This document shows positions 13,701-64,000 of a stretch of 64,000 nucleotides of DNA, piece by piece. The DNA lies in contig CM068842.1 in assembly GCA_028554795.2 (NCBI GenBank), positions 25,454,590-25,518,589 of the forward strand. The letters are read 5' to 3'. The notes beneath the pieces were generated by a model that had not been told where the DNA came from, made no database searches, and saw only the letters and a list, made by a program, of their open reading frames with translations. The translations under genes and the position numbers were made by a program. How positions within the stretch are numbered: position 1 is the first letter of the stretch; each line of letters starts with the position of its first letter. This stretch comes from Sinohyriopsis cumingii (taxonomy: Eukaryota; Mollusca; Bivalvia; Unionida; Unionidae).

Positions 13701-13772
13701 GTCTAGATGAGACAATATAAGTTAAACTAATGTCTTGTCATGCTGCCTAGGCAAAAAATAAATGACCCGTAC
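10772..13772. other. TAO kinase intron 9, with minisatellite
   Basis: Non-coding. It holds the 47-bp minisatellite at 12852-13364; the rest is AT-rich unique-looking sequence with no gene. Confidence 0.6.
12852..13364. repeat. 47-bp minisatellite, 11 copies
   Basis: Eleven head-to-tail copies of a unit starting TATAAACCTGATGGCCCTTC. Starts are near 12852, 12899, 12942, 12989 and then every 47 bp to 13318. Unit 2 is shortened to 43 bp. Copies differ by single substitutions (ACTGTC versus ACTTTC, ATCTG versus ATTTG), alternating in blocks. There are no unique spacers, so it is not a CRISPR-like array. Confidence 0.95.
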
Positions 13773-13964
13773 CTGTGATGAATCATCAGCTATCACATCT
13801 TCTGAAGGTCCATAGAGCCGAGCCTCTTCCTCTTGTGTGTCAACCATTAGTATTTTTTTCATGCGACGGTACTGCAGATTGTCCAGCTCTCTTACAGCAT
13901 CTTTTGTACGCTGGATTAAATCTGTTATCACATTAGGAGACCTTGGCCGCACCAAAAATATATG
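13773..13964 (-). CDS. TAOK: TAO kinase exon 9 (end of kinase domain)
   Basis: Encodes 64 residues (about 278-341). It begins HIFLVRPR and contains the TAO hallmark DLIQRTKDAVRELDNLQYR, which immediately follows kinase subdomain XI, then an acidic stretch (TQEEEARLYG). The acceptor is TTTCCAG and the donor GTACGG; both introns are phase 0. The near identity of this segment to vertebrate TAOK1-3 separates the gene from MAP4K and MST relatives. Confidence 0.96.
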
Positions 13965-16900
13965 CTGGAAAGCAGAACACAATAAATGGATTATACATGT
14001 ATGTTGGTCTTGTGGGAATACAGAAGAGTTTTCATGGAACATGCATGCCCCAATATGGTACCTGAAATGATCGATATGCAAACCTTAAATTATATGTAAT
14101 GAAAAGGTGGACACAAAAGTATAAGAATGGACATGGGCAAAACATGTCCCTAGTGTCTTCTTATATCAGAAGGTGAATACCCTAATTCTACCGTCATATT
14201 TATGCCTGCGAGCAATTCTGTCAGAACTTAAGTGCCAACTGTGTTTTGATCTGCAACTTGTGAAATTATTTGTTATATTGTTGCACTCAATTAAAAGCAG
14301 ACCTGCTTTTTATTATCATGTTATGTCTTTTGTATAAAATCAAATAAAGGAGCTGGAATAAAAGAAAAGTTACAAGAAATGCAAATCCTACCTGCATAAG
14401 AATTGGTGATCCTGTCCTCCTTTTAACTGACCAATCAAAAACTGTTACAAATATGATGTAAGTAATATAATTAAACTACCTTAGGTTAGCCTACTCTTCC
14501 ACATATGTGATTAAAGACTGCGAAAACAACCAAACGAAATTAATTTATGGTGATTAAAAACCTGTTTTGCTGATACAATTCATTATGGAAAAGTGAGTTC
14601 CAAAGTGTGTAGTGAACTTAAAATTTCTGAACTGGCACTCAGAGATTTCCTCAAACATGACAAGTTTCACTGTTACTTGCAATGAAATCAAGGCATCAAT
14701 AGTTTACCATTAGAACAATAAATAAAAGAATCAATTTCAATGTTGGCAGTGCTTTCACAAAATAAACGTCTCTGGTGTTTGAAAATAAGGAATCTTGTTG
14801 TGAACAGCAGCAAAAAGCTGTGGCACAATCCAAAATGTTCTCATGTACACATGATGATTGTTAAACATCTAAGAGTGATGTTGCTAATGGTATTTCAGAG
14901 GTTGCAAAATAGAGGTAATTTGCACAGAAATGGGGACAGCTCTTTACTGATAATTAATCCCAATGTGATTATAAAATGAGTATTCAGCCATTAAAAAGTC
15001 TGCAATGTCCACAGGGATGGCATACCCTTCTTCAATTTTTTTTGAGGTTCCACAGTAACTTGTGCCCTCACGTATAGTGCAGTCTATGTTTTTAGGATCA
15101 CGATGTGCACGAGTTATTTAGAGACATACATACATACATTCATACATACATAAGTGACAGGATATAAACAATAAAAAGAACATTCTTTTCTATGATATGA
15201 AAGTACAGGTAATATAATGTGTTGATTAAAACCACAGATTTATGCTGTTTTTTAATTATATTTTTTTAAATCACTGTTTCTAATACCTTCTTCAGAAAAC
15301 ATTATCATTGCCTGCTCTTAAAAGCCAGATTTTACTGGGTGAAAGTCAGTCTTCAAGTAACCTTTGAATGCCAGAATAGTTCATGCATCAATAATCACTT
15401 GATGAGCTACCACAGCTGTGGCCTCATTCTACAAACATACAGCATTTAGTACACTCATCTAATTTTGACACTCATTCACACATACAATACTGAGTTCACC
15501 TGTAGACAGTTAGCATATCACAATATACAGTCATTTACATGGAAAGTTAACCACTGAATAAACATCATTTATTCCGACTTCCAACTATACTGATCAGCGA
15601 GGATGTTCCGAGTCAACTAAGACATATATAGCACAGAATCTATGAAGCTACTTAACCCATGTTAGTACAGCAAAAAATGTGGGTAACAATGACCTCCTTT
15701 GGTTTTTAAGGTGAAGTAATAATAGAGAGGTATCCAATTATAAAGCTTGATGATTGGAACATAAACAGCACCCAATTAATAAACTTTAAATACAAAACTT
15801 CCACAAAATTTTTAAATTATGTAACATATATCATGTTTACCTCTTTTTGCAATATAAGGGTGCATACTTGCTAAGATGCATCCCCTCACCAAGACTCATG
15901 ATTCTAGGTAGGATGGTATGCATATAGCATGCACAAAACTTGGTCATGAATAAATGCAAGAATGTAACCAAAATCAAGGAAATATTAAAAAAGGTTATGG
16001 TTAGCTTCTTTTGCTGCAAGGGTGTGGTACTAATAATATGTACATTATTATAATCAATTTCATTATTCTTATCATGAACTGTGCCTGAGAAATAAACAGC
16101 AAACCAAAATCAGTGAAGCATAAAATACAGGCCATAATGATCTACTTCTGCAATGTGGGAATAGTGCTTTATCTAGATGCATCTCCTCAAACAGTGCAAT
16201 ATTTCTAGATAGGATGGCATGTATGTAGCATCAAAACAGTCTTTGTGTTGTTTTGTGTTGTGGGGGTAAACTGGTTTTAGTCATGTAATACTTACCTGCT
16301 GGTATTGCACAGCTTACCTATTCCAGGACATAAAGATCACCCACATACCACGTGCAGGGGAGGGGCCTGACATTAAAACAGAGCACTGCTGAATACGTAA
16401 CATAAATTGCCTAAAGAAACTAACAAGACAGTAAATCAATGAATGAAGGAATGAGGGTAGAATAATGGAAACCCATCTTAAAAAGCCCGAAGCATATTTA
16501 GACAAGAGCTGAAGGCAATAATTCTAGGGTTATATGCATAGAATGCAAAGCATATGGTATCTAAAAAAAGGTGAGGACTACGTATGGTACATGCACCAAT
16601 TACTTGGTTAGCAGACTGAATCTGTATTTTGTTCAGGATTCTTTCTAGGATTCTCTATGGAGGGTCAACTATGGGAGGCTGCAATCTTATTATACTGACA
16701 AGAGTAATTCTGATCCAGAATAGAAAAGCAATGTAATACTAACACGTTACATATTACTGACATTAAAACACGTGATTACTGATTACAAGTAACACAAAAT
16801 CGTAACATGTCAGGAAAATGTGAAATGTGTGTCAAAACGACCTTTTGTACATGGGTGTGGTTCTAAGTACACAATAATCTTTATCAATTATTCAAGAATA

Positions 16901-51480: not shown

Positions 51481-51487
51481 GTGAAGT

Positions 51488-51660
51488 GGGCCACCATAGC
51501 CTCAATGGGAATTAGCATTACAGAGACCCCTGGGCCACTATAGCCTCAATGGAAATTTAACATGGAGAAAAATCGTGGGCCACTATAGCCTCAAGGGAAT
51601 TTAACATGGAGAAAAAGTCTTGGGCCACTCTAGCCTCAAGGGGAATTGAACATGGGATTT
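51488..51660. repeat. 45-bp subterminal tandem repeats, 4 copies
   Basis: Four units starting GGGCCACTATAGCCTCAA at 51488, 51532, 51577 and 51622, each 39-45 bp. They lie between the LINE tail and the first element gene and are followed by a (TTTAAA)n-like tract (about 51678-51710). They are good candidates for the element's terminal or subterminal repeats; the matching right end is outside the window, so this cannot be proved here. Confidence 0.75.
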
Positions 51661-51755
51661 ATTTTTTTAAAAAAGTTTTTTAAATTTAAATTTAAATTTA
51701 AATTTAAAAAAGGGTAGGCAATTGAAAAGTCATTCTCTTTTCGAGAAATATGGCT

Positions 51756-51771
51756 GGCCCTGTAAAGGGCC
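51756..51771 (-). terminator. histone-type 3' stem-loop after gene A
   Basis: The minus strand reads CCAAA-GGCCCTTTACAGGGCC-AGCCA: a 6-bp stem GGCCCT/AGGGCC with a 4-nt loop TTAC, the metazoan histone 5' flank CCAAA, and a near-consensus 3' flank (ACCCA expected). About 13 nt further on is GAAAAGAGAATGA, like a U7-binding downstream element. It starts 25 nt after gene A's stop codon. The loop differs from the usual TTTC/TTTA by one base. Confidence 0.75.
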
Positions 51772-51795
51772 TTTGGGTTTCTTCTTCTTCTTCTT

Positions 51796-52379
51796 CTAAC
51801 TCCTTAACTTCTTCCACCAAGTCCTCACTTTTTCCATTATTCCTTTCTTCTTCTTTTTCTCCTCTGGCATCCAGTCTGGATGGCCCAAGGCTCTAAACTT
51901 TTCCTGGACTTTGATCCAATTCTGATTTAACCTATCAAAATCAGCCTGTTTCTTTTTGTTTTCCTGATCTTTTCTTTCTTTATACCATCTCTCTTTAATC
52001 TTCTTTACCTCTACCTCCATCACTTTTCTCATCAACTCCTCTCCTTTCCTCAGTCTTTCCTGACCTCTCTCCACATAAGAGCACTCTGTCCCATGTGACA
52101 TTTTTTCAAGAAAGCACCTGACTTTGCTTGCATTGTCAAGTGCTTCCTTTAGGCTTCCCACTCTGACATAGGTGGGATTTATCATACCTCTCAATCTCTT
52201 TTCCTCCTCTTCAATCATTCCTGCTATCACTTCTTTTGCTATGTTTAGACATTTAGCGTAGTCCAGGTGCTCTGCTATCTTCCATTCTTTTTCTAGTCTC
52301 TCCACTACATAGATACCATCTATTATCCAGTTGTATATATGTACCAAATTGTTGAACAAGTCACTTGCAACCACGATCT
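51796..52379 (-). CDS. tandem paralogue A: coiled-coil protein, start codon lost
   Basis: Helical, Lys/Glu-rich product of about 190 residues in the homologous frame, ending with a basic Trp-containing tail (VRTWWKKLRS). It aligns loosely with genes B and C at the N-terminus (hydrophobic heptads, then IEEEEKRLR), but where both have ATG after AAG/AAA this copy has ATC (about 52375-52377). The first downstream in-frame ATG is at 52221, giving about 141 residues. Its own TATAAG (52429-52434), its own copy of the shared promoter block and a histone-type stem-loop remain. The frame stays open upstream through the promoter, which I do not count as coding. Function unknown. Confidence 0.6.
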
Positions 52380-52428
52380 TCGTTTTTATTATTCCGTAGA
52401 ATGGTTCGAACGACGAACGTGGTGGGTT

Positions 52429-52536
52429 CTTATAGTGAAAGCGCGTACGTGATGGAAAACATCCCCCTAAAAACATAAAATTGATCTTACCTACATCGTG
52501 ACCAAACAACGCGCGGACGTGAAGGAAAACATCCCC
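52429..52536 (-). promoter_or_regulatory. shared promoter module of gene A
   Basis: TATAAG at 52429-52434 is preceded (minus strand) by a degenerate copy (52441-52466) and then a good copy (52511-52536) of the 26-bp block whose minus-strand core is GGGGATGTTTTCC...CACGTCCGCGC. The block recurs before genes B and C. Having two copies here suggests a cis-regulatory element rather than chance. Confidence 0.65.
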
Positions 52537-52767
52537 ACTTTTCTCATTTCATATAATATAACCCAAACTATACTCTCCACATATGCCAAGAAACAATAAA
52601 GAAACCCATAATCTACTATTCACACCAACTTACGTGAACAGTTACTAACACAAACACACAAACACATACACTCGCACTATGAATAAAGAGTTAGTGTTTA
52701 TATTCACACTACTCTACCAACACACATTGGCAAATTGATCGTTATTTCTTTTCTAGAGTATTGGGGT

Positions 52768-52783
52768 AGCCCTGAAAAGGGCT
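52768..52783 (-). terminator. histone-type 3' stem-loop after gene B
   Basis: The minus strand reads AAACA-AGCCCTTTTCAGGGCT-ACCCCA (shared A counted in the stem): a 6-bp stem, the canonical TTTC loop and an ACCCA-like 3' flank. It is followed about 12 nt later by AGAAAAGAAA, resembling the histone downstream element. It begins 34 nt after the stop codon at 52817. An identical copy follows gene C. Confidence 0.85.
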
Positions 52784-52816
52784 GTTTTTTTTGTTTGGAA
52801 CTTCATGGACACCTGG

Positions 52817-53173
52817 TTAATGGTGACACCTTCCAGGCCTGGCGCCACATACACATCTTGTCCTCCAGTTACTTTTTACCTTTTGGGGGGAGAGAGCAGA
52901 GGCAGGATATGTGGCTTCAGAATCCCAATTTTCGCTCTCTGGGATTCTGAAATTTCTTCTTCTTCTCTCCTTTTCCTCCTCCTCTTCTTTGTTTCTTCTC
53001 TCCTCCTCCTCTTCTTTGTATTTGCTCTCCTCCTCTTCTTTATTTCTTCTTTCCTCCTCCTCTCTCATCCTTCCGTCTTCCACAATGGCTTCCGCGGCCA
53101 GTTCATTTAATATGCGCCTGGCATATTCCAGATGCATATGAAGTTCCAACAGTTTCGCCAGTCTCGTGTTCAT
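52817..53173 (-). CDS. tandem paralogue B: Glu/Arg-rich coiled-coil protein
   Basis: 118 residues from the ATG at 53173, the first in-frame ATG after the TATA box. It begins MNTRLAKLLELHMHLEYARR and continues into a long charged helix of EEEERR/KEEEE repeats (about residues 28-75), then a short tail with Cys and His near the C-terminus. The N-terminal MxxRLAKL block matches gene C (MCSKLAKL). Purine-rich repeats make the antisense strand open too; that frame is a shadow. Function unknown; the histone-like 3' end suggests S-phase expression (inference). Confidence 0.65.
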   Translation of the reverse strand: MNTRLAKLLELHMHLEYARRILNELAAEAIVEDGRMREEEERRNKEEEESKYKEEEEERRNKEEEEEKERRRRNFRIPESENWDSEATYPASALSPQKVKSNWRTRCVCGARPGRCHH

Positions 53174-53226
53174 TTTTTGGTGTTGATCAATCAACAAGGG
53201 TAGCTAGACTGCCGAACGAGTTTCAA

Positions 53227-53264
53227 TTTATAGTGAAAGCGCGGACGTGAAGGAAAACATCCCC
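53227..53264 (-). promoter_or_regulatory. shared promoter module of gene B
   Basis: TATAAA at 53227-53232 within TTTCACTATAAATTG, next to the 26-bp block (53239-53264) with minus-strand core CACGTCCGCGC. CAGTC, an initiator-like motif, lies 22 nt from the TATA start, the same spacing as in gene C's module. Confidence 0.7.
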
Positions 53265-53627
53265 CTAAAAACATAAAATTGATCTTACCTAGATCATAAC
53301 CAAAGAAACAACTCGCGGACCTAAAAGAAACACTCACTCACTTTTTATGCTACCCATCACTATTTTTAAATTTTTTTCATAAATCACTTCAATAGACTAT
53401 CCACATACCCAAAGCAATCCAATCTAACCCCAAATATACACCTCAAACACCAAAAAAGACATCATTTTAATCTACTATCCATACCAACTTAATTGAGCAC
53501 TTACAAACACAAACACACAAACACATACCCTCACATTTTTTAAAAAAGAGTTAGTGTTTATATTCACACTACTCTACCTACACACATTGGCAAATAGGTC
53601 GATATTTCTTTTCTAGAGTATTGGGGT

Positions 53628-53643
53628 AGCCCTGAAAAGGGCT
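53628..53643 (-). terminator. histone-type 3' stem-loop after gene C
   Basis: Same minus-strand sequence as at 52768: AGCCCTTTTCAGGGCT with ACCCCA after it and CTAGAAAAGAAAT downstream. It begins 30 nt after the stop at 53673. Confidence 0.85.
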
Positions 53644-53672
53644 GTTTTTTTGTTTGCTATGGCAATCTTTTT

Positions 53673-54038: not shown

Positions 54039-54092
54039 CTTCTTAGGAGGATGAGTCGACAATGGATGGTTAGACTGGAAACAACCCCGGTT

Positions 54093-54130
54093 CTTAAAGT
54101 CAAAGCGCGGACGTGAAGGAAAACATCCCC
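54093..54130 (-). promoter_or_regulatory. shared promoter module of gene C
   Basis: A degenerate TATA (TTTAAG, 54093-54098) beside an intact 26-bp block (54105-54130), with CAGTC at the same distance as in gene B. The loss of a good TATA may weaken this copy. Confidence 0.6.
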
Positions 54131-54374: not shown

Positions 54375-54935
54375 CTACTTTAAACAGGGCTGACAACGTT
54401 GTGAATGAAATTGTGATTTCCACTGTTGGAAATCATTAGGCCATTGATGGACACTACGTTTCCTAGCTTGAGACAAAAGATAAGCATAATGGTCACAAAA
54501 CCATCGATCTACTTTCACATCGTTTCTAGCAGAAGAACGAGGATCGAAATGAGTCACTAAATGTTCTAAGGAATAGCCTAGGCTGCGATGATGCAGAAAA
54601 TACACACAGTATTGTCCACACACCAAGGAATCTGTGCCTTGTAATTTCACATTATTGAATCGGGTGGTCTGAGCATTTCTTCTCATAAAGTCGATGATAT
54701 CGTCTTCTAAAGGGGGCAATCCGTACGAATCGAAATATTCCACACATCCTTCTTGAGGAAAGTAGACGGCTACCCAGTGGGTTCCTGGGAGATGACTGTC
54801 GTCCGTGTTGATCACGTAAGCTTGATGGTCTTTAGGTTTGCGATGAGGGAGTTCATCTTTAGCACAGACGACAGGATTCCAAGAAGCCGTATACGAACTG
54901 TGGTTCAAAAGGTAATAAAGTTCCCAGGTATCCAT
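54375..54935 (-). CDS. PRO: adenain-type cysteine protease (Maverick PRO)
   Basis: 186 residues from the ATG at 54935. In adenoviruses and Mavericks this C5-family enzyme matures virion proteins. The catalytic set is visible in order: His53 in GTHWVAVYF, Asp69 in EYFDSYG, Gln99 in KLQGTD, and Cys106 in SLVCGQYC, matching the His-Glu/Asp-Gln-Cys layout of adenain. Length is typical. It is the last gene of the capsid string; the preceding ORF ends 23 nt upstream. No breaks. Confidence 0.9.
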   Translation of the reverse strand: MDTWELYYLLNHSSYTASWNPVVCAKDELPHRKPKDHQAYVINTDDSHLPGTHWVAVYFPQEGCVEYFDSYGLPPLEDDIIDFMRRNAQTTRFNNVKLQGTDSLVCGQYCVYFLHHRSLGYSLEHLVTHFDPRSSARNDVKVDRWFCDHYAYLLSQARKRSVHQWPNDFQQWKSQFHSQRCQPCLK

Positions 54936-54958
54936 TGTTTTGTGTGGTTTTTTCTTCT

Positions 54959-55465
54959 TCACAGGTAATAATAAGTCGTCAATTCGATCCTGACTTTTTG
55001 CTTGAAAATGTCTGACGAATAAACGGTTATTCGTTCTGTTTCCTCACTCTGATTCAGGAGAGCTTCGATACGATGGATCTCTTGAGTGGTTAATGGTGGA
55101 CAAGAATGTTCACGCAAGTCTTTATACCACTGGTGCAACACGTCTTTGTTCGAGATGAGACTCCAAGCTTCGTCCAGATACTCGTCCAATTTTTCTTCTT
55201 GACTCAACATCAGGCATTTATCGTGTTGAATTTGACTGGGATGATCGTTTTGACATCCATAGCAATTTTTCTTGATCAATTCCGTCATTTTATCGACCAA
55301 GTGTTTGGCAAAACAGGAGACTAAATGGGCTTCTTGTTCTGGCCATCTTGACTTCATCATGACAACTTCTTCGTCTTTGTCTTGGGATTCTTCTTTTTCC
55401 ACGGTCTCCTCACATTTCATCTCCAAAGTTTCTCCACTAGGCAAAGAGGGATAACAGTCTTCCAT
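54959..55465 (-). CDS. conserved Maverick protein with CYGCQ-HPSQ-H-C motif
   Basis: 168 residues from the ATG at 55465. After an acidic N-terminus (EETVEKEESQDKDEE) comes a helical segment and the motif NCYGCQNDHPSQIQHDKCL, a Cys/His cluster that could bind a metal and that I recall from other invertebrate Mavericks. The C-terminal part is helical and acidic. It starts 6 nt after the likely natural end of the capsid gene (55471). Function unknown; its place between capsid and protease genes suggests an assembly role (inference). Confidence 0.75.
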   Translation of the reverse strand: MEDCYPSLPSGETLEMKCEETVEKEESQDKDEEVVMMKSRWPEQEAHLVSCFAKHLVDKMTELIKKNCYGCQNDHPSQIQHDKCLMLSQEEKLDEYLDEAWSLISNKDVLHQWYKDLREHSCPPLTTQEIHRIEALLNQSEETERITVYSSDIFKQKVRIELTTYYYL

Positions 55466-55550
55466 GGCTTCTAGTAATCTAGAATGACTTCTCTCAAACT
55501 GTTGATTTCTATGGTATTATCGAATTCTGCATACAGGATGACGTTCACCG

Positions 55551-56783
55551 TTACATCAGGTCTCGGTTTGCAAACTGAATTTCCACACGAATCTGACCGG
55601 ATTTTATAGGGTGGAAATGTCCCTCGTCGCTGCCTTGGTCAGGAGTGAAATCGAAAGCCCACAAAGCATAGCCTCCTACATAATCGTCGTACGTAATACC
55701 GTGACTGGTGTTGGTTCCTAACTGGCCGGTGGCTTCGTACAGGGACAAGTACGATCTCAAGTAATTCTTCTTCTGAAAGTCAGGCTCAAAGGGTCGGGTA
55801 CACAAGGCTTTGCCATCGCGACTGACTTCGATCTTGGACACGCCGAAGTGTTGAAAGTAGAAAGGATTTTTACCCAAAGCTCCGTTGAAGGCTTCATTCT
55901 CGACGATACCAACGATCAAACGTTTGGGTAACTGTCCTTGGAACAAATGATCTTCGATCATGAATCGCTGTCCCTTGGGAATGGTGAAGGTTTTCACTTC
56001 CACGCGTCGTATGGGATACTTGGCGGTCGTTCTGCTCAATGTTTGACTGCTGTCGTTACCCACTTTAGGTAACACTTCCACGCGTCGTACGTAGAGCCTG
56101 GCTTCCTCGATGACAGTTTTGCAAGCAGTAGTACCTATCAAATGGAAAGTGGCACTGCTACGATTCAGTCTCAGGCGAACATTCACCCCGTTTAGCAAAT
56201 ATTTCTCTTGTAACCACATGTCCAAATGCAAACGATCCATTAGTTCTAAACTCTGTCCATCTTTGATTCTGTTTCTTCGTTCTATAAATCCGTCATTGTT
56301 TTCTTTCTTTTCATCAGTTTCGAAATTTTCAAACTTTTCAGCTTCGTCAACTTCCCATAGCACAGAGGCATTGAGATGAGTGTTCTTGGCGTCTATTCCG
56401 TACGTCAAGAGATTTTCCAGGTACGCTCGATAAGGGTAAGTATCCATGCTGCTGCTGACCAGTTTGTTGTTCAAGTACAAGTCCACTCCGCTAAACAAGG
56501 AATGCATGAAATTGTTGACGGGAGCTATTACCTCATCGCCATCTAGGGTCGAATTGTCCTCATCGACAACTTTGACTTTCAAGTACAAGTAACTGCTATT
56601 CAGATCGATGTAATCTTCGGGCTGTCCTTTGATTTCAAACTCGATGGGAGCTGAGGCTGTCAATGAGGAGACGGGGTGAAATTCCACCCACTGGGATTCT
56701 TGCATGGTCATCATCGTGGGGGGGGGCATGGCAAACAGATCCAGTTCCGTCTTGGAATAAGCGCACGATTCTCGGTGCATCAT
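55551..56783 (-). CDS. MCP: major capsid protein (F54H12.2-like), C-terminal frameshift
   Basis: 410 residues from the ATG at 56783 (tandem ATGATG). This is the protein often named 'F54H12.2-like' in invertebrate annotation and the double-jelly-roll major capsid (hexon-like) protein of Mavericks/adintoviruses. Family blocks seen: the N-terminal WVEFHPVSS, VNNFMHSLFSGVDLYLNNK, SSSMDTYPYRAYLENLLTYG, and the DYVGGYALWAFDFTPD region near the end. The open frame stops at 55551, but about 28 further family-like codons continue in another frame to a stop at 55471. This implies a one-base loss in or near the A-run at about 55566-55568. It may be real decay or a homopolymer error. Confidence 0.88.
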   Translation of the reverse strand: MMHRESCAYSKTELDLFAMPPPTMMTMQESQWVEFHPVSSLTASAPIEFEIKGQPEDYIDLNSSYLYLKVKVVDEDNSTLDGDEVIAPVNNFMHSLFSGVDLYLNNKLVSSSMDTYPYRAYLENLLTYGIDAKNTHLNASVLWEVDEAEKFENFETDEKKENNDGFIERRNRIKDGQSLELMDRLHLDMWLQEKYLLNGVNVRLRLNRSSATFHLIGTTACKTVIEEARLYVRRVEVLPKVGNDSSQTLSRTTAKYPIRRVEVKTFTIPKGQRFMIEDHLFQGQLPKRLIVGIVENEAFNGALGKNPFYFQHFGVSKIEVSRDGKALCTRPFEPDFQKKNYLRSYLSLYEATGQLGTNTSHGITYDDYVGGYALWAFDFTPDQGSDEGHFHPIKSGQIRVEIQFANRDLM

Positions 56784-56798
56784 TTTTTGTCTCTTTTC

Positions 56799-57215
56799 TC
56801 AATAATCGAAAACGTCTAAGTCTCGAACGGTTCTTCTTTTCTTGGCCTTTTTAGCTTGAAGTCTGGTGAAAGGGTGTTTTCTTCGTGGTCTCTTTCTGCC
56901 TTGTCCTTGCTGAATGCCTGACTCGGTAGCGTGCAGGGCATTTAAAGGTGTGCCTCGTCGGCCCAAAATGTCTTTTCCCGTTTGCAGCAAGACATTTTTG
57001 CCAGCCCTCATGAAGGCTTCTTTAGGGTTTTGTTTGTCGATGATGACATTTTGGAGAAATTCTTTGCCTTGCGTCAGTGCCGCATCTTTCAAGGCGTGCA
57101 ATCCGCGTGTCACCATCGGTTTCAACACCGGAGCCACCGAACGAAAGGCCGATTTCAGCATGTCTCCTAAACCGTGTCCTCGCTGTCGAGCAACCCCTCG
57201 GTACACTGGATACAT
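56799..57215 (-). CDS. small basic virion protein (adenovirus pX-like position)
   Basis: 138 residues from the ATG at 57215. N-terminal VYRGVARQRGHGLGDMLKS leads into an amphipathic helical region, and the C-terminus is strongly basic (GRKRPRRKHPF, KKAKKRRTVRD). Maverick/adintovirus genomes carry such a gene beside the capsid genes, compared by others with adenovirus core or membrane-active proteins. The upstream stop is 3 nt away and the capsid ATG follows 15 nt later. Role inferred: genome condensation or internal virion protein. Confidence 0.7.
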   Translation of the reverse strand: MYPVYRGVARQRGHGLGDMLKSAFRSVAPVLKPMVTRGLHALKDAALTQGKEFLQNVIIDKQNPKEAFMRAGKNVLLQTGKDILGRRGTPLNALHATESGIQQGQGRKRPRRKHPFTRLQAKKAKKRRTVRDLDVFDY

Positions 57216-57218
57216 GAC

Positions 57219-58157
57219 TTACGAGTCGTGAGAGAACCGTTTTCGAAAATGGAGTTTCACCGTGACTTTTCCTTTGGTGAATGGAATATTTTGTCCCAAA
57301 TCTCCTTTTATAGCAATGTTGACCGTGTCCAAATACGACTTGCTGACCGGCAAATAGTGAGGATGGACAAATTCGCGGTGGACGTGGTAAGTGTTTCCAC
57401 CTTCCTCGTCAGCGTTCGTGGCAGAATCCACTTTGAAAGGAATGACACGCAGTAACGGTACGGAGGTGTGTCCCACCACGTTATACTCCACCACATCGGA
57501 ATACACGAACATCAAATTCAGTCCTTGATTCAGTTCTACTGGGGTACGAAAGAACTTGCTAAAAGACTCGTTGTCGTAAATGATTGCTAGCTCACTTTTT
57601 TGCTCAAATTTCTTTCTCATCTCCATGTCTCCGCCAAACATGTCAAACAATTCAGGACAAAATAAGAAAGACATCATTTTACGCCCCTCAGGAAATTTCA
57701 TTAGGAAGCGACGAGCTGTTTTGTGGTACTCCAGGGTGACGACACCTTTTTTGACTTCCTCCAAAGCTTTCAGAAACACGCCATTAAACCTGGTGGCTAT
57801 GGTACTGACCAAATGTTGACCACTAAAATAATAGCCTGGGGGAATGAACAAGTGATAGGTGGTGTACTTTTGATTTTTGGTGCCAAGGGTTTTCTTGTCA
57901 TATTTGCCATGGGTATCCAACCACTGTTGCAATTGTTCGTCATAAACTTCCACATCAAATTTATTTTGATTGGGAAGGACATTGAGGACTTGGGTCGGGC
58001 GAATCATTTCTACTAAAGCCACTTCCCAATGGGCTTCGTGACCTAAGGGGATGGCCTGAGGTAATTTTGCCGTGTAACAGCACAACGTGTTGTGGGGAAA
58101 CACCTCCATGGAACTGTCACTGGGTAAGGTTAAGTAAAATTGGCTTTCGTGACTCAT
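57219..58157 (-). CDS. putative minor capsid (penton-like) protein
   Basis: 312 residues from the ATG at 58157, overlapping the previous stop as ATGA. N-terminal FYLTLPSDSSMEVFPHNT, then WEVALVEMIRP, is a conserved opening I associate with a Maverick gene found beside the capsid gene in many invertebrates. Predicted mostly beta, no membrane segment. Length and position suit a single-jelly-roll penton protein, but there is no diagnostic catalytic motif, so the assignment is by synteny and family resemblance. Frame intact. Confidence 0.65.
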   Translation of the reverse strand: MSHESQFYLTLPSDSSMEVFPHNTLCCYTAKLPQAIPLGHEAHWEVALVEMIRPTQVLNVLPNQNKFDVEVYDEQLQQWLDTHGKYDKKTLGTKNQKYTTYHLFIPPGYYFSGQHLVSTIATRFNGVFLKALEEVKKGVVTLEYHKTARRFLMKFPEGRKMMSFLFCPELFDMFGGDMEMRKKFEQKSELAIIYDNESFSKFFRTPVELNQGLNLMFVYSDVVEYNVVGHTSVPLLRVIPFKVDSATNADEEGGNTYHVHREFVHPHYLPVSKSYLDTVNIAIKGDLGQNIPFTKGKVTVKLHFRKRFSHDS

Positions 58158-58570
58158 AATTCCAGAGTTCTGTGGCTGTCCGAGGGGTTACTGGACGTCA
58201 GAGGCGTGTCTCCGCCCAAAATGGGGTTCTGATTGTGGTTGGAGTGGTGACTGACACTGGCACTGGACACTAGGTTCCCGTGGTTCCCGTTCGAGGAGAA
58301 TTTCAGGGAGGGATTGGGAAGCAGGTAACCGATGCAACTGCTCAATAAAATGGTCCACAATTGTTTGTCTCCTTGTTGCAAACTCAGATTGGCTATGGCT
58401 GCCCCGATGACACAATACACCACGAAGATTTGGCAGAAAAAGACGATTTGCGTTTTAGGCACACGTTCTCCACACCACACCCACAAGGGTTGTTTTTGTA
58501 AATCTTGCACAGAAGAACTAGGTGAAGGAGGAGTGGTCGACGTATCTGCGTCTGCTGTGTGAAAGGGCAT
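58154..58570 (-). CDS. two-TM membrane protein, conserved in Mavericks
   Basis: 138 residues from the ATG at 58570, 5 nt after the integrase stop. Layout: Ser/Pro/Thr-rich N-terminus; the conserved block ERVPKTQIVFFCQIFVVYCV forming the first membrane segment (about 45-65); a short loop; a second hydrophobic segment LWTILLSSCIGYLLPNPSL (about 72-90); and a polar Asn/Ser/His tail. TATAAAAAG (58582-58590) lies only 12 nt upstream of this ATG, too close for a normal leader. Function unknown; likely membrane or envelope associated. Confidence 0.75.
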   Translation of the reverse strand: MPFHTADADTSTTPPSPSSSVQDLQKQPLWVWCGERVPKTQIVFFCQIFVVYCVIGAAIANLSLQQGDKQLWTILLSSCIGYLLPNPSLKFSSNGNHGNLVSSASVSHHSNHNQNPILGGDTPLTSSNPSDSHRTLEL

Positions 58571-58575
58571 GATGG

Positions 58576-59685
58576 TCACTTCTTTTTATAGTCGATGACT
58601 TGCGAAGCGTCGATCCAAGAATCGAAACTGGGTGGATATCCTTTCCAACGTACTTTGACTTCTTTGACACGTCGTTTGCCCACTTTACGGGTTCTGCGTT
58701 CGAGAATGCTTTCGATGTCGTACACGTCGTCTTCTTTTTTGGTCACACGTTGTAACTCGGGTAAATAAAACGTTCCTTTGAGCACTTCTCCATTCATGTC
58801 TTCCAATTTATAGACGGCAGGATGACAGCCATGCACTCGTCCAGTGACGCGAAACAATTCGGTCGTCCAGTTAGGTAAGCAACCTTTGTCGAAAGTGCGT
58901 TTGGTTTTGCCAATGCGCACCCAATCTCCTACGGCCAACATTCCACTTTTCTTGGGGACAGCCCTCGTCGGGGACGTACCGAACAGACGCTCAAACACCA
59001 ACACTTCGTTGTCGGGTGTCAAGTCTTGCGGGGCACGTCCAATGCTTCGATGGTAAGATTGGTTGTACGCTTGCACCAGGTGCGGTAAGATGTCGATGTA
59101 CTTCAGAGTGTGGTGATGCGTAAAATATTTCCACATGCGTTCTTTCAAAGTGCGTTGAAAACGTTCCACGATGCTGGCTTTGGTTTCGGGATTCTCGGTG
59201 GTAAAAAAATGAATGTCACGTTTCTTTAATTCTTTTTGGAAAGCTTGGTTCAGAAATTCGGTGCCTTTGTCCGTTTGCCATCGAAGAGGGTGACGACCGC
59301 TTTGTTTCAACACCCGTTGCAGGGCTCGCACTAACTCGCTGCTCGATTTGGAAGTCAAGGGCACGACCCAGGCAAATTTGGAAAAGACGTCGATGACACA
59401 AAACAAATATTTGTAGCCGCGATTGTAGCTGGCCAAATGAGAGACATCGGCTAAATCGGCTTGCCATTGATGATCGATGCCTTCCGCTCGGGTGCGACTT
59501 CTGGAAAACTTCCGTCGAATGGGTTTGTGCAAAGTGTAGGTAGCTTGTTCTTGTAACCATCGTTGCACTTGAGGTAAACGGAGACTTTTCAGTCGAGTTT
59601 TGGCAGCACGATACAATTTTTGAACTCCTGCGTAACCTGCAGGATGGGAGGGATCGTAGTAAATGCTGGCTAAGACTTTTTCCAT
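58576..59685 (-). CDS. INT: chromodomain retroviral-type integrase (Maverick INT)
   Basis: 369 residues from the ATG at 59685. The N-terminal helical/zinc-like region has HPAGYAGVQKLYRAAK and the family string ATYTLHKPIRRKF. The catalytic core follows, with Asp77 in QWQADLAD, Asp139 in WQTDKGTEF and Glu174 in SIVERFQRTLK (34 residues between the last two). A C-terminal chromodomain (about 321-365) has YDIESIL, VKVRWKGYPP and SFDSWIDASQV. It inserts the element's linear DNA; chromodomains can bias integration toward modified histones. All catalytic residues are present and the ORF is uninterrupted. Confidence 0.95.
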   Translation of the reverse strand: MEKVLASIYYDPSHPAGYAGVQKLYRAAKTRLKSLRLPQVQRWLQEQATYTLHKPIRRKFSRSRTRAEGIDHQWQADLADVSHLASYNRGYKYLFCVIDVFSKFAWVVPLTSKSSSELVRALQRVLKQSGRHPLRWQTDKGTEFLNQAFQKELKKRDIHFFTTENPETKASIVERFQRTLKERMWKYFTHHHTLKYIDILPHLVQAYNQSYHRSIGRAPQDLTPDNEVLVFERLFGTSPTRAVPKKSGMLAVGDWVRIGKTKRTFDKGCLPNWTTELFRVTGRVHGCHPAVYKLEDMNGEVLKGTFYLPELQRVTKKEDDVYDIESILERRTRKVGKRRVKEVKVRWKGYPPSFDSWIDASQVIDYKKK

Positions 59686-59854
59686 TTTTTTGTGTTTGTG
59701 TGTTAATAAGACACCCACTCTTGGAGGATGCTACTCTTTTTCTCTTGGGGTACTTTCTTGGATTGCAATGCTTTGCGTGTGCGACCGGCAATAGGTGTTG
59801 AAGAGGAGTAGGATGTCTGAGCTGGGGATATCGGTTCTTGTTTTACTTCTGTCT

Positions 59855-60331
59855 TCACTTTCTTTTTCTCTGTGATGAGGAAGGGGTGGCCATCATCTTT
59901 TTAATCCATCCAATTCTGGAGGTAGGTGGTGTTGTTAACTTGCGTACTTTTTCTGGCGGAGTTTGAAACCCTTCTTCTTCTTCTTTTCCTTTATCTGTCT
60001 TGGTCACTGGTACTGGTGGTACTGGTACTGGTACTGGTGATGGTGCTGGACTTTTCATCAAGGTCTTAAAATCTTTCAGAGTGGGTAGAGCGGTTTCGTC
60101 TAAAACTTTCTGGTGAAAGAGTTGCAGTCGTTGCAAGAGTTGACCGTACTTTTGCGATTTTTCTGTTTCGGACAAATCTTGGCGATCCATCAAAGACTGT
60201 AATTCGTGTTGTAACTGGGACATCTCGCTCAAATTGGGATTGGGAGGTAAATGCGGGGTGCGTTGTTCTTGCCACCGATGGTATTCCATCCATCGTTTGT
60301 AAGGCACTAAAGCTAGTTTTCGTCCTTCCAT
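59855..60331 (-). CDS. conserved Maverick helical protein, probable 3' frameshift
   Basis: 158 residues from the ATG at 60331. N-terminal LALVPYKRWMEYHRWQEQ, then LQSLMDRQDLSETEKSQKYG and the helical LQRLQLFHQKVLDE, a pattern I recall in many metazoan Mavericks (a 'MxLVP... iL... dlsddeK' protein). A Pro/Val-rich linker and basic end (SSSQRKRK) follow. The frame stops at 59855, but about 55 coding-like codons continue in another frame to a stop at 59703, 17 nt before the integrase ATG. The switch falls in an A-rich run near 59860-59872. Function unknown. Confidence 0.7.
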   Translation of the reverse strand: MEGRKLALVPYKRWMEYHRWQEQRTPHLPPNPNLSEMSQLQHELQSLMDRQDLSETEKSQKYGQLLQRLQLFHQKVLDETALPTLKDFKTLMKSPAPSPVPVPVPPVPVTKTDKGKEEEEGFQTPPEKVRKLTTPPTSRIGWIKKMMATPSSSQRKRK

Positions 60332-60379
60332 GGGGTTGTCAGCGGTCGATTCTGAGATCTTGGGATTTCCGAGGGCCTT

Positions 60380-60766
60380 TTATCTTGCTCCTACCAGTCC
60401 TCCCAACATGGTTCCCAAGACTCCTTTCAGTATGGGGCCTAACAAGAGAGGTAAAATGCCTCCACGTTGCACTAACATCTTCTTTTTTTGACGAATGGGA
60501 ATTTTCTTTCGAACCATTTGGCGAAGAACGTGACGATGTTTGCCTAAGCATTGTTTCTGGTGTTTGGACAAAGGGATCGTGCCTTTCAAAACGTTCAAAC
60601 AACATTCGCACACGGTATCGATGACCTCTTTGGAGGCCGTTTGAATGAGTTTTTTTCGTAGAGGTGGAGAAGCTTTGGACAGGACAGATAACATGTCCCC
60701 ATGTTTGGCTAAACGTGGTGGCAGTCCTTTCCTTTTCTTTCCTTGGGGTTTTCTGGAGGGTGACAT
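60380..60766 (-). CDS. basic protein with hydrophobic Gly-rich tail (Maverick)
   Basis: 128 residues from the ATG at 60766. A very basic N-terminus (SRKPQGKKRKGLPPRLAKH), a middle with CECCLNVLKGTIPLSKHQK, a conserved-style KKKMLVQRGG, and a C-terminal hydrophobic Gly/Leu stretch (about 104-126). MLGG|L at 120-124 fits the adenain (M/I/L)xGG|x cleavage pattern, so the tail could be cut by the element's own protease (inference). TATAAAAAA at 60821-60829 is 55 nt upstream. A membrane-active virion peptide is one possibility. Confidence 0.7.
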   Translation of the reverse strand: MSPSRKPQGKKRKGLPPRLAKHGDMLSVLSKASPPLRKKLIQTASKEVIDTVCECCLNVLKGTIPLSKHQKQCLGKHRHVLRQMVRKKIPIRQKKKMLVQRGGILPLLLGPILKGVLGTMLGGLVGAR

Positions 60767-60865
60767 CTTTGAGTCTTCAGGAGCACCAAAAAACACTGAT
60801 ACCCTACTTGGTCACAGGCCTTTTTTATACTGGAACGCGTCGCCACTGATTGTCTTTACGTCGTA

Positions 60866-61774
60866 TCAGTTTGAGGACAGCATGACACGTCGTGCAGGGG
60901 TACGCAACGGACTAAATCGAGCCAGTTCTTGCTTGGACAAATCCAGTAAACTTTGTAACATGCCCGATCTTTCATGGACTTTGATTTTGGGAGAAGGTAC
61001 TTTGTGAGCAGCAGCCACTGCCACTAAATTGGAGGGTCCTGACACTGGGGAAGTTCTTTTGGGGGTCATCAACGGAGAAGTTCTTGGTGTGATCAACGTC
61101 TCCAAGTACTCTTCAGTTCCTGGTGTCATCAACGGAGAAGTGGACAAACGTGAGGATGCCGGAGACGCAGTCACCGCTGTGGCAGGTCGTGGTTTACGAG
61201 TGTAAGGTTGCGTCCTAGCCGAAGTGCCTCTCTTGCGACTAGTTTTCTTCTGTGGACTTTTCTTTTTCTGGGGACTTTTTTTCTGTTTCTTTTTCTGGGG
61301 GCTTCTTTTCTTTTTCCGGGGTGGTGTCTGGTAAGAGGAGGGTCCTGCCACTGGAGAAGTTCTCCTTGGGGACCTGGTCTTTTTCTTTTTCTTCTTGGGG
61401 CTTCGTTTGACTTTTTTCTTGGGGATAACTTTGGGGGCATTACGATCCCATCTTAAGAGTGAGCGAATGATGACCCCTCCTAGAGTACCGCTCCCTCCAG
61501 GTTTCAAAATGATTTGTTTTTTGGTTTGAGTGTCGATGCAGGGATCGGCCATTTGGACCAAAGCGACTTTGTTTCGATCGAAAAAGCGTTGGGTTTGATG
61601 AGGAATCTGAATGATTCCTTGGAGTATTTGACGTGCCGTCACCGTGAACCATCGTAAGACTTCTTTGAGACTAGCTTCTAAGACACGGGCTCGTATTTGT
61701 GGATTTTTTTCTCGACTGATGCCATACAAGGCACGAATCAATTTGACGGGAAGATGCGACTGAAGGGACGTCAT
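60866..61774 (-). CDS. SPKK-rich basic core protein
   Basis: 302 residues from the ATG at 61774. The N-terminal third is a globular-looking domain (SHLPVKLIRALYGISREKNP, IKS-like helices, up to GGVIIRSLLRW at about 110). The middle (about 115-200) is dense in Lys/Arg with SPKKK, SPQKK and SPRR repeats, like histone H1 tails and other DNA minor-groove-binding proteins. The C-terminal third has repeated TSPLMTP-type Ser/Thr-Pro motifs. TATAAAAA lies at 61813-61820. Likely packages the DNA or binds chromatin (inference). Confidence 0.7.
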   Translation of the reverse strand: MTSLQSHLPVKLIRALYGISREKNPQIRARVLEASLKEVLRWFTVTARQILQGIIQIPHQTQRFFDRNKVALVQMADPCIDTQTKKQIILKPGGSGTLGGVIIRSLLRWDRNAPKVIPKKKVKRSPKKKKKKTRSPRRTSPVAGPSSYQTPPRKKKRSPQKKKQKKSPQKKKSPQKKTSRKRGTSARTQPYTRKPRPATAVTASPASSRLSTSPLMTPGTEEYLETLITPRTSPLMTPKRTSPVSGPSNLVAVAAAHKVPSPKIKVHERSGMLQSLLDLSKQELARFSPLRTPARRVMLSSN

Positions 61775-61812
61775 GTTCACACTGTGTGAGACAGACGAGA
61801 AAGGGTCTGAGG

Positions 61813-61820
61813 TTTTTATA
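61813..61820 (-). promoter_or_regulatory. TATA box of the SPKK core gene
   Basis: Minus-strand TATAAAAA, 39 nt upstream of the ATG at 61774, inside the 52-nt spacer after the ATPase stop. Confidence 0.6.
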
Positions 61821-61825
61821 GATTT

Positions 61826-62569
61826 TTATGGGGAGTGAAATGAAGTCGAGGACGGAGACGTGTACAGGACAGGCCATCCGTCTTGGCACCAGTGGTGAAA
61901 CAAGTGGGTACGAAATCGCAAATCCTCGGGGGTTGTTGGTTTCAAATCGACGAGTAAATAGGCGTGTGGCGTTTGAGTGGCATCGTCGTACGCCTGAGTC
62001 AGCCAAGGTGTTCCTAACTGTTTGGCTAAGACTTGCACTTGCGATTTATCTCGAGGGCTTTTAAACAAGACCACGTAATGCGCATTGAGACTGATGGTGC
62101 GATGGGCTTTACTTTGTCGAAACAAATTTTGGGTGATGTAAACGACACTGGCATTACGGTGATGCCCTTTGCGCGTGAACCACAATTTAATTTCTTCTTC
62201 GTCTTCTCCTAACATGTCGTCGAAAATGACCAAATGAGTTTGACGGGAGTCAGAGACGATGCCGTCGTCTTCTTTAGGAATGCCTTCCACAAACACGATG
62301 GAATCGCCTTGACTTTCTCGCAAGAGGTTGTACGCCGATTGCCACTCTTTGTAACACCACACGATCCGTTGAGGTGGCCGATCGATCAAATGATGTTTAT
62401 GTTCGATCAAACGCTTGACGAATTCGGTTTTGCCTGAACCGCTAGGTCCAGCAATGAGCATGTTAAAGGGATGGCGAAGATACAAAGCCTCCCAACTGGC
62501 ACGATCTAAGTGTTCGTCGATAACTTTGACAGTAGAGGAAGAGGGAGCAGAGACAGCAGAGGTAGCCAT
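61826..62569 (-). CDS. ATP: FtsK/HerA-type genome-packaging ATPase (Maverick ATP)
   Basis: 247 residues from the ATG at 62569. Walker A is GPSGSGKT at residues 41-48 and Walker B LVIFDD at 113-118, followed by the family-typical YITQN (144-148). Between them lies RIVWCYKEWQSAY, common to the invertebrate Maverick ATPases. This A32/FtsK-like motor is expected to pump the genome into capsids. Catalytic motifs are complete and the frame is open. A TATATAAA (62617-62624) lies 48 nt upstream. Confidence 0.92.
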   Translation of the reverse strand: MATSAVSAPSSSTVKVIDEHLDRASWEALYLRHPFNMLIAGPSGSGKTEFVKRLIEHKHHLIDRPPQRIVWCYKEWQSAYNLLRESQGDSIVFVEGIPKEDDGIVSDSRQTHLVIFDDMLGEDEEEIKLWFTRKGHHRNASVVYITQNLFRQSKAHRTISLNAHYVVLFKSPRDKSQVQVLAKQLGTPWLTQAYDDATQTPHAYLLVDLKPTTPEDLRFRTHLFHHWCQDGWPVLYTSPSSTSFHSP

Positions 62570-62616
62570 TGTGTGAGAAATGTCACTTGTGACACGAAAA
62601 ACAAACAAGACAAGAG

Positions 62617-62624
62617 TTTATATA
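62617..62624 (-). promoter_or_regulatory. TATA box of the packaging ATPase
   Basis: Minus-strand TATATAAA (in GTATATAAACTC), giving a predicted leader of roughly 20 nt to the ATG at 62569. Confidence 0.6.
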
Positions 62625-62639
62625 CTTTTTCAGAACACG

Positions 62640-62645
62640 TTTATT
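62640..62645 (-). terminator. poly(A) signal after the Cys-rich membrane ORF
   Basis: Minus-strand AATAAA, 15 nt after the stop at 62660, just before the ATPase promoter. Confidence 0.6.
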
Positions 62646-62659
62646 GAATGTTTTTTTTT

Positions 62660-63010
62660 TCAAACATGAATACGAAAGACAAATATACATAAAAGCCAAA
62701 GGCTTAAGTACAAGAATAAAAGGCACATGATAACCATGAACGTGGAATAAAAACAAGTGTCTGTACAACAACAACATGTTTTGGGTAATGTTCTAACCAG
62801 TTCTATAGTAGGGGGTAAGGTCACACAAGTGTCCTTCCGAAAGGGTCTTTCAGGCCTGTCCACGACAGTCCTGTCCTGGGTGACGGGTTCTTCTGGCACC
62901 GTCACTAACACGGGTTGAAAAGTAACTTTTTTCCTTGAACAACTCTCGTGCATACTGGGCCACTTCTTGGGTCCAAGCCTCAAAACCCCATTCTTTCCAG
63001 GCACGGACAT
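62660..63010 (-). CDS. Cys-rich tail-anchored membrane protein, overlapping ORF
   Basis: 116 residues from the ATG at 63010. A polar N-terminus with VTFQPVLVTVPEEP, then TLPKTCCCCTDTCF, and a single C-terminal membrane span (about 92-114, VIMCLLFLYLSLWLLCIFVF). The N-terminal half overlaps the preceding ORF (62850-63173) in a different frame. The Cys cluster beside the membrane could be palmitoylated (inference). No family recognised. Confidence 0.5.
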   Translation of the reverse strand: MSVPGKNGVLRLGPKKWPSMHESCSRKKVTFQPVLVTVPEEPVTQDRTVVDRPERPFRKDTCVTLPPTIELVRTLPKTCCCCTDTCFYSTFMVIMCLLFLYLSLWLLCIFVFRIHV

Positions 63011-63173
63011 CTGTCCAATGGGGATGTAAGTCACAAGCTACACACACATCGTCATACACGTCTTGGCTAGCTAAAAGTTGACGAATCTTTTTTTCCTGTT
63101 GAGGTCGAGAAGTATCCAGATGAAAACGCAAGGCTTTGAGCAAAAGGAGTTTTTCGTGACCATTTAAGGCCAT
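62850..63173 (-). CDS. small unknown protein (107 aa)
   Basis: From the ATG at 63173, which overlaps the end of the upstream ORF (ATGGCCTTAA). Begins MALNGHEKLLLLKALRFHLD; contains CVACDLHPHW and a Trp-rich WKEWGFEAWTQEVAQYAREL; the C-terminus is Arg-rich. Helical and compact. No recognised family. The second half overlaps the Cys-rich membrane ORF, so one of the two may be translated by leaky scanning. Confidence 0.5.
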   Translation of the reverse strand: MALNGHEKLLLLKALRFHLDTSRPQQEKKIRQLLASQDVYDDVCVACDLHPHWTDVRAWKEWGFEAWTQEVAQYARELFKEKSYFSTRVSDGARRTRHPGQDCRGQA

Positions 63174-63388
63174 TGAGGTGGTAAGTACTGATCGTAAAGA
63201 GTCCACAAAGAATCGGCTGGTAAACGAAATCCCAGAAAACAAGTCACTAAGACACACACCACTTGTCGTCCCAAATTGAATGGATACAGTTCTTGTAATA
63301 ATCGATGGTAATGATCCACGGTTTGAATATGGTCATTGAGTTCCTTCCACGGAATCTGTTCAATGATATGTGACATAATCCGTGGCAT
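63164..63388 (-). CDS. small unknown protein (70-74 aa)
   Basis: The ATG at 63388 or, four codons later, 63376. TATAAAATC at 63397-63405 lies so close that transcripts starting about 25-30 nt downstream would use the second ATG. Contains a hydrophobic central segment (VVCVLVTCFLGF) flanked by helical sequence. It overlaps the upstream ORF's end by 29 nt. No recognised family. Confidence 0.45.
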   Translation of the reverse strand: MPRIMSHIIEQIPWKELNDHIQTVDHYHRLLQELYPFNLGRQVVCVLVTCFLGFRLPADSLWTLYDQYLPPQWP

Positions 63389-63857
63389 GGCAACTTGATT
63401 TTATAGTGTCTTTGTTTCGGAAGCAATAAAGGTAATTTCTAACCAAACATGTTCGTTCTCCAGTAGGGAATTTAAATGTTACATACTGTAACTGAAACGT
63501 CAGAGTTTGTCTAGATGTTTCGTCTTTTTCTAAGCAGATTCCATGTAACAAATGTTGGTAATCCTTTAACTCGTCTTCCTCAATACGTTGCAGTAAGTGA
63601 ATCTCGAAGTAACCAAAATTACGAACGTCTGGTCCATCATCATTCACAAACTGAAAGTGTTGAACAAGGTCTGACCACTGAAAAAATTTCTGACGAATCA
63701 GTCCTCTTATACCATTCAGGTACCAGTGGTTAAAGATCTGGTGACGTAACGGATGCAATTGTTCTTTACGTTTCACTTGTATTTTCACCAGCTCTCGGTA
63801 GATCCTTTCTCTCAACTCCTCAGGCAAGCCCAAAATGTTCTCTTGCAAAGTATCCAT
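63360..63857 (-). CDS. unknown helical protein (165 aa)
   Basis: From the ATG at 63857 (the frame is open a further 26 codons upstream without ATG). Begins MDTLQENILGLPEELRERIY; contains HPLRHQIFNHWYLNG, a charged helix (LLQRIEEDELKDYQHLLHG) and a beta-rich C-terminus (LTFQLQYVTFKFPTG). LPEELRERIYREL resembles a short F-box-like opening, but that is too brief to assign. It is the first complete ORF of the element within the window. Confidence 0.5.
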   Translation of the reverse strand: MDTLQENILGLPEELRERIYRELVKIQVKRKEQLHPLRHQIFNHWYLNGIRGLIRQKFFQWSDLVQHFQFVNDDGPDVRNFGYFEIHLLQRIEEDELKDYQHLLHGICLEKDETSRQTLTFQLQYVTFKFPTGERTCLVRNYLYCFRNKDTIKSSCHATDYVTYH

Positions 63858-63919
63858 AAGTATATACACTGTTTTTGGAATCGTTGGGTGGTGGCCAATA
63901 GCCTCGTTTAACTTTGTGC

Positions 63920-64000
63920 CTAATGTAATATCCACTCATAATCAGTCTTCTTGTACTTTGGAACATAGCATAATTTAAAAACGGACGAATCACTTTGAGT
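63920..64000 (-). CDS. C-terminal end of an ORF cut by the window edge
   Basis: An open frame enters from beyond base 64000 and ends at 63920-63922, with the last residues KKTDYEWILH. About 26 codons are visible. Position suggests another element gene (the missing protein-primed DNA polymerase is one candidate), but nothing here identifies it. Confidence 0.3.
   Translation of the reverse strand, partial: TQSDSSVFKLCYVPKYKKTDYEWILH

Follow-up and report, generated by a model that had tools for sequence, protein, structure and literature searches.

How do the terminal genes of a virus-like mobile element end their mRNAs? The question is raised by a 64,000-nucleotide stretch of the Sinohyriopsis cumingii genome (assembly GCA_028554795.2, contig CM068842.1, positions 25,454,590 to 25,518,589; hereafter, the window), in which a Maverick (Polinton) element starts near 51.5 kb, reads on the minus strand, and is still running where the window ends (64000). 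A prediction made earlier from the letters alone held that each of three tandem genes at the left end of this element is followed by a 16-nt hairpin (6-bp stem, 4-nt loop) of the type that ends replication-dependent histone mRNAs. The hairpins were confirmed behind all three genes, on the minus strand. Their distances from the stop codons, which the original prediction had put at 25 to 34 nt, measured 24, 33, and 29 nt. The genes, defined as open reading frames (ORFs), and their hairpins are as follows.

51796..52377, minus strand: gene 1, about 193 codons, predicted helical protein (ORF list, homologues)
51756..51771, minus strand: gene 1 candidate histone-type stem-loop, GGCCCTTTACAGGGCC (GGCCCT-TTAC-AGGGCC), 24 nt after the stop; RF00032 match 51731-51776, 24.5 bits
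52817..53173, minus strand: gene 2, ATG at 53173, charged, coiled-coil-like by eye (no Pfam match)
52768..52783, minus strand: gene 2 candidate histone-type stem-loop, AGCCCTTTTCAGGGCT (AGCCCT-TTTC-AGGGCT), 33 nt after the stop; RF00032 match 52744-52788, 29.3 bits
53673..54038, minus strand: gene 3, ATG at 54038, 121 amino acids (ORF, homologues)
53628..53643, minus strand: gene 3 candidate histone-type stem-loop, AGCCCTTTTCAGGGCT (AGCCCT-TTTC-AGGGCT), 29 nt after the stop; RF00032 match 53602-53648, 29.8 bits

All three matches to the Rfam histone 3′ stem-loop model (RF00032) covered model positions 1 to 46 of 46, and all six pairs were standard. When the 2.6-kb stretch was searched against 4227 families, E-values were 7.4e-6 for gene 3, 1.1e-5 for gene 2, and 7e-4 for gene 1; calculated for the whole 64000-base window, they were 1.8e-4, 2.7e-4, and 0.017, respectively, and these were the only RF00032 matches on either strand. 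The histone-like flanks that had been predicted are present: CCAAA or AAACA precedes the stem-loops, and ACCC(C) (genes 2 and 3) or AGCC(A) (gene 1) follows them, giving ACCCC/AGCCA tails. The 16-nt hairpin pattern, with up to 2 mismatches allowed, matched 4 times at 3 places against 0.13 expected per window shuffle, and 4 matches were attained in 0 of 100 shuffles. Perfect 6-bp/4-nt hairpins lie within 80 nt after the stop in 3 of 16 element ORFs examined, namely genes 1 to 3, and in 0 of the 13 others; the background rate is 26 of about 800 minus-strand window tiles.

Each tail is followed by a 10-nt purine run in the place where a U7 small nuclear ribonucleoprotein (snRNP) site belongs, as had been proposed. 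These putative histone downstream elements (HDEs) were located from the sequence as follows.

51731..51755, minus strand: gene 1 tail AGCCA and putative HDE, AAAGAG core 15 nt after the stem
52743..52767, minus strand: gene 2 tail ACCCC and putative HDE, AAAGAA core 16 nt after the stem
53602..53627, minus strand: gene 3 tail ACCCC and putative HDE, AAAGAA core 16 nt after the stem

In the mouse (PMC7026596), the purine core of the HDE is AAAGAG, pairing with CUCUUU of U7. With the second Maverick described below, an AAAGAG/AAAGAA core stands 15 to 16 nt past the stem in 4 of 4 cases. AAAGAR starting 12 to 19 nt on is found for 1.6% of minus-strand window positions and 5.0% of positions in the local region. 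Between stop and stem, genes 1 to 3 have no AATAAA or ATTAAA.

A scan of GTDB contigs with a 32-sequence capsid alignment gave seven further Maverick loci (L003 to L009; 67,935 bases), all of which were searched with Rfam. RF00032 matched in one of the seven, L007, where the score of 35.8 bits exceeds the 34-bit gathering score (E 1.1e-6; 2e-8 when a search is confined to 1.2 kb). The L007 hairpin lies 28 nt after the stop of an 89-amino-acid ORF that contains two C2H2 stretches (Pfam E 3.5e-11); ACCCC comes next, and AAAGAG stands 15 nt after the stem. This zinc-finger gene is not homologous to genes 1 to 3 and has no Pfam histone match. L007 is a distant relative of the window element (30% identity in the capsid protein and 38% in the integrase) and also carries PolB and a TBP-like gene. 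Its hairpin-bearing gene is the outermost recognizable gene at its end and reads toward a contig end with short repeats, as in the window; those repeats presumably mark the end of the element. The TBP-like protein (L007:1189-1695, plus strand; 168 amino acids; Pfam TBP E 1.2e-27) is encoded divergently from the zinc-finger gene.

The proposal that the three hairpins are histone-type 3′ ends is thus well supported as far as sequence can tell, by the full-length RF00032 matches, the tails, the correctly spaced AAAGAR core, the absence of poly(A) signals between stop and stem, and the L007 case; the identification is strengthened because the L007 match is above the cut-off and in a second, distant Maverick. 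In histone pre-mRNA, SLBP sits on the stem-loop, U7 snRNP on the purine core, and CPSF73 cleaves (PMC7026596, PMC9756948). We consider it probable that the three terminal genes use the same 3′-end processing, yielding mRNAs that would carry no poly(A) and be most abundant in S phase. Host SLBP would bind the stem-loop, U7 snRNP would pair with the purine-rich core, and CPSF73 would cut between the two. The products would be short nonpolyadenylated mRNAs, made and stable mainly in S phase and decaying afterwards, and the element would express this accessory gene set while the host nucleus replicates. We infer the use of SLBP and U7, the absence of poly(A), the S-phase timing, and a benefit to an element replicating in the nucleus from these features.

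A number of observations weigh against this reading. All three window stem-loops score under the Rfam gathering score, and a default Rfam scan was empty; the covariance-model search that the original prediction had proposed as a check gave clear full-length matches but left these copies below the cut-off, so routine annotation would miss them. The cases are also fewer than three: genes 2 and 3 share a recent 110-nt duplication, 95% identical, in which their hairpins sit, and because of it those two count as one, leaving about two independent cases in the window. The outermost stem pair is G-C in gene 1 and A-U in genes 2 and 3, both sides having changed with pairing kept, but covariation amounts to this single pair and falls short of significance (the same level arises in 72 of 500 shuffles). 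Folding-energy z-scores are −2.00 for gene 1, −0.29 for gene 2, and −1.40 for gene 3 (−2.95 for the L007 hairpin), that is, ordinary for genes 2 and 3. The gene 1 loop is TTAC, not the ideal loop for SLBP, which prefers U at loop position 3. Purine runs of at least 10 within 40 nt are common locally (20% of positions, against 4.8% in the window), and the gene 1 purine element can itself fold as a 5-bp hairpin. Poly(A) hexamers lie farther downstream, 132 nt (gene 1), 426 nt (gene 2), and 201 nt (gene 3, ATTAAA) after the stop, and since they lie beyond the stem-loops, fallback to polyadenylation is possible. RF00032 had no match in the six loci other than L007, several of them incomplete. Because of that incompleteness, and because the loci hold no gene 1-3 homologues (none recognizable in the seven loci; best E 0.15), the absence of the hairpin there says little about genes 1 to 3; it does suggest that a histone-type 3′ end is not general to Mavericks. 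Finally, two ORFs of this copy look damaged. Of the seven gene 1 homologues, six begin at a column where gene 1 (52377) has no ATG, and the seventh begins four columns later; the capsid ORF (410 amino acids, end at 55551) stops before near-invariant C-terminal columns of the 32-sequence alignment.

These two defects also speak for the alternative that survives best, namely, that the signal was real in an active ancestor and is nonfunctional in this decaying provirus. On the other side, gene 3 still has its start and its conserved residues, and the integrase reading frame runs open through both domains. This Maverick copy may be inactive; we regard loss of the signal's function as possible but rather unlikely, and it would be compatible with SLBP/U7 processing in the lineage. 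Because this copy shows decay, the claim of histone-type ends is best read for the lineage.

The genes resemble one another at their other ends as well. A shared upstream block on the minus strand consists of GATGTTTTCC-W-TCACGT, then a GC-rich stretch, then a TATA-like box. It has four copies in the window, all in this region, two before gene 1 and one each before genes 2 and 3, and all were found by repeat comparison, the proximal gene 1 copy as repeat family D2.

52425..52466, minus strand: gene 1 promoter block, proximal, upstream of a TATA-like box at 52430-52435, without the GTCCGCG core
52495..52536, minus strand: gene 1 promoter block, distal, with the ACGTCCGCG core
53223..53264, minus strand: gene 2 promoter block, with the ACGTCCGCG core, upstream of a TATA box at 53228-53233
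54089..54130, minus strand: gene 3 promoter block, with the ACGTCCGCG core, upstream of a weak TATA-like box, CTTTAA

GTCCGCG occurs four times in the window, each time on the minus strand of this region; base composition predicts 1.6, and the count is not striking alone. ACGTCCGC occurs three times in the window, always inside promoter blocks. E2F sites in the block were rejected by eye against the consensus. The promoter core may resemble the site of HINFP (HiNF-P), the histone H4 factor. If this likeness is right, genes 1 to 3 would imitate histone genes at both ends, which is the boldest and least secure part of the interpretation. In its fullest form, which we offer tentatively, some animal Mavericks would run terminal accessory genes as pseudo-histone genes, with the putative H4/HINFP-like block and TATA box at one end and the stem-loop and U7 site at the other, transcribed and processed in histone locus bodies in S phase; the arrangement would have arisen at least twice or would be old and moving between unrelated accessory genes. 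In H4 promoters, HiNF-P binds an element specific to this histone subtype and recruits NPAT (PMC5706932).

The joint recurrence of promoter block and 3′ end at all three genes, and the possible likeness of the block to an H4 element, would also be expected if both had been captured by recombination from a host histone gene. Such signals might work and yet reflect capture, not selection for timing, and this explanation is not strictly exclusive of SLBP/U7 use. We consider it unlikely. By eye, the gene 1 flank outside the hairpin and purine element no longer aligns with those of genes 2 and 3, and the stem is intact, so that the hairpin was kept while its surroundings diverged; the same arrangement stands behind an unrelated gene in distant L007; and by Pfam the proteins are not histones.

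Less probable still is that the hairpins serve another purpose, as a generic terminator, a stability element, or a palindrome at the DNA level, look histone-like by chance, and were copied by duplication. That two of the three are copies, that all score below the gathering score, that two have weak folding z-scores, and that a perfect 6/4 hairpin of some kind is present in 26 of about 800 tiles would fit this, as would a loose hairpin scan, which turned up a single weak candidate, lying inside an ORF, in each of L008 and L009 and one more candidate in a phage contig, L001. It does not account for the specific agreement in sequence across stem, loop, tail, and purine core, for a pattern expectation of 0.13 per window, or for the above-threshold case in L007. 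Least probable is a decoy, in which the stem-loops would act chiefly by binding SLBP or U7 of the host, disturb histone mRNA processing, and favor viral over host chromatin: three nearby copies, all of them following genes that have their own promoter blocks, might suggest it, but every hairpin follows its ORF by 24 to 33 nt and has a purine core at a fixed spacing, and a decoy would need neither the gene linkage nor the downstream element.

Further copies were sought with a model, R1, built from the four hairpins, on which its own high scores prove nothing; with filters off, it gave no further match better than E 0.56. Among IMG/VR viral contigs, no Maverick relative was found by integrase, capsid, gene 1 alignment, PolB, or hairpin patterns. 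Two hairpin-pattern matches there, L001 and L002, are phage-like by their ORFs and were set aside as chance, and phage records gave no capsid match. The seven Maverick loci are eukaryotic-looking contigs in GTDB bacterial bins, for example those of tubeworm and mussel symbionts. In L009, a TFIIB-repeat protein (5700-6395, minus strand; Pfam E 1.5e-8) and a TBP-like protein (6392-6922, minus strand; Pfam E 2.5e-8) are encoded side by side, a pair that suggests promoter recognition of its own in a distant Maverick-like locus. In L004, from a Bathymodiolus symbiont assembly, a twister-P1 ribozyme match below threshold (11734-11798, plus strand; 28.9 bits against a cut-off of 67.2; E 0.045) sits behind the capsid gene of the Maverick.

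None of genes 1 to 3 has a Pfam family above the cut-off or a histone match. The original prediction that no histone gene lies nearby held for the 18 element ORFs examined, none of which has a Pfam histone match; this search for histones did not extend to the 51 kb on the left. For gene 1, 7 homologues were found at 48 to 57% identity, and for gene 3, 9 at 68 to 81%, mostly on short contigs in both cases, and the same basic tail recurs in 7 of the 9 for gene 3. Both look like conserved families, true genes under selection. The predicted gene 1 model is helical (mean predicted local distance difference test score, pLDDT, 78) and has no convincing structural match; the best hits, E 0.11 in the PDB and E 0.0065 among viral structures, were treated as none. 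Genes 2 and 3 are alike near the start (MxxxLAKLxE), with little of this in gene 1. At 52916-52951, the coding part of gene 2 contains a perfect inverted repeat of 12 bp whose arms are 12 nt apart.

The rest of the Maverick within the window (54375..63935, minus strand) was delimited by ORFs, Pfam, and protein relatives. Its recognizable genes and the repeat array next to gene 1 are as follows.

51487..51665, no strand assigned: array of four repeats of about 45 nt adjoining gene 1 (repeat family D3)
54375-54962, minus strand: adenain-like protease (weak Pfam match, E 0.0091, below the Pfam cut-off)
55551-56783, minus strand: F54H12.2-like (capsid) protein (F54H12.2-like relatives; no Pfam match)
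58576-59718, minus strand: integrase with chromodomain (Pfam rve E 3e-14)
61826-62608, minus strand: packaging ATPase (Pfam Pox_A32 E 7.3e-8)

The array is probably a subterminal repeat at the left end of the element, whose position would follow from these repeats. The capsid protein, adenain-like protease, rve integrase, and packaging ATPase make up a Maverick/Polinton gene set; PolB was not seen in the part of the element inside the window, and the right end lies beyond it. F54H12.2-like proteins are Maverick capsid proteins; Pfam has no match for the window protein. This protein has 853 relatives. Among the 120 of them that were listed, the best match was 84% identical, the animal-named matches were bivalves (Mercenaria at 52%, Crassostrea, Ostrea, and Saccostrea), and one match, at 53%, is filed under a Thiodiazotropha bin. 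Elsewhere in the window, an ORF at 13722-14084 (minus strand) resembles an exon of a TAO-type kinase and is probably part of a host gene.

Full-text literature searches found no histone-type 3′ ends on Mavericks or adintoviruses among the matches listed; most subscription papers were outside their reach, and a prior description is possible. Term look-ups in four Maverick papers (PMC8097293, PMC10120064, PMC11071308, and PMC4028283) returned no mention of histone or stem-loop, and those in a review of histone-encoding viruses (PMC9145170) returned none of stem-loop, polyadenylation, SLBP, Maverick, or polinton. If the proposed processing is correct, non-histone genes of a virus-like element would break the rule that ties this kind of 3′ end to histone genes. 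RNA processing would be the means by which a mobile DNA virus times its genes to S phase, and the transcripts would go unseen in RNA data selected for poly(A). The processing would also provide a simple and testable way to tell when Mavericks are active, and would add a natural substrate to those of SLBP and U7.

The features of genes 1 to 3 can be set beside four known systems. With the 3′ end of replication-dependent histone mRNAs (RF00032; SLBP, U7 snRNP, CPSF73) they share the 6-bp/4-nt stem-loop, the flanks, the AAAGAR core 15 to 16 nt on, and the lack of any poly(A) signal ahead of the stem-loop; they differ in belonging to non-histone genes of a virus-like element, in one TTAC loop, and in window scores below the Rfam cut-off. 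The element is like Maverick/Polinton (adintovirus-like) elements in its F54H12.2-like protein, weak adenain-like protease, integrase with chromodomain, and packaging ATPase, and is set apart by histone-type 3′ ends, for which no description in that group was found in the literature searched. A poly(A)-type hexamer downstream of each window stem-loop recalls the dual 3′ ends of H2A.X (stem-loop or poly(A)), but H2A.X is a histone gene (PMC7807067). As in histone-encoding viruses, a DNA virus is connected with histone biology (PMC9145170); what would be borrowed here is an RNA signal, not a histone protein.

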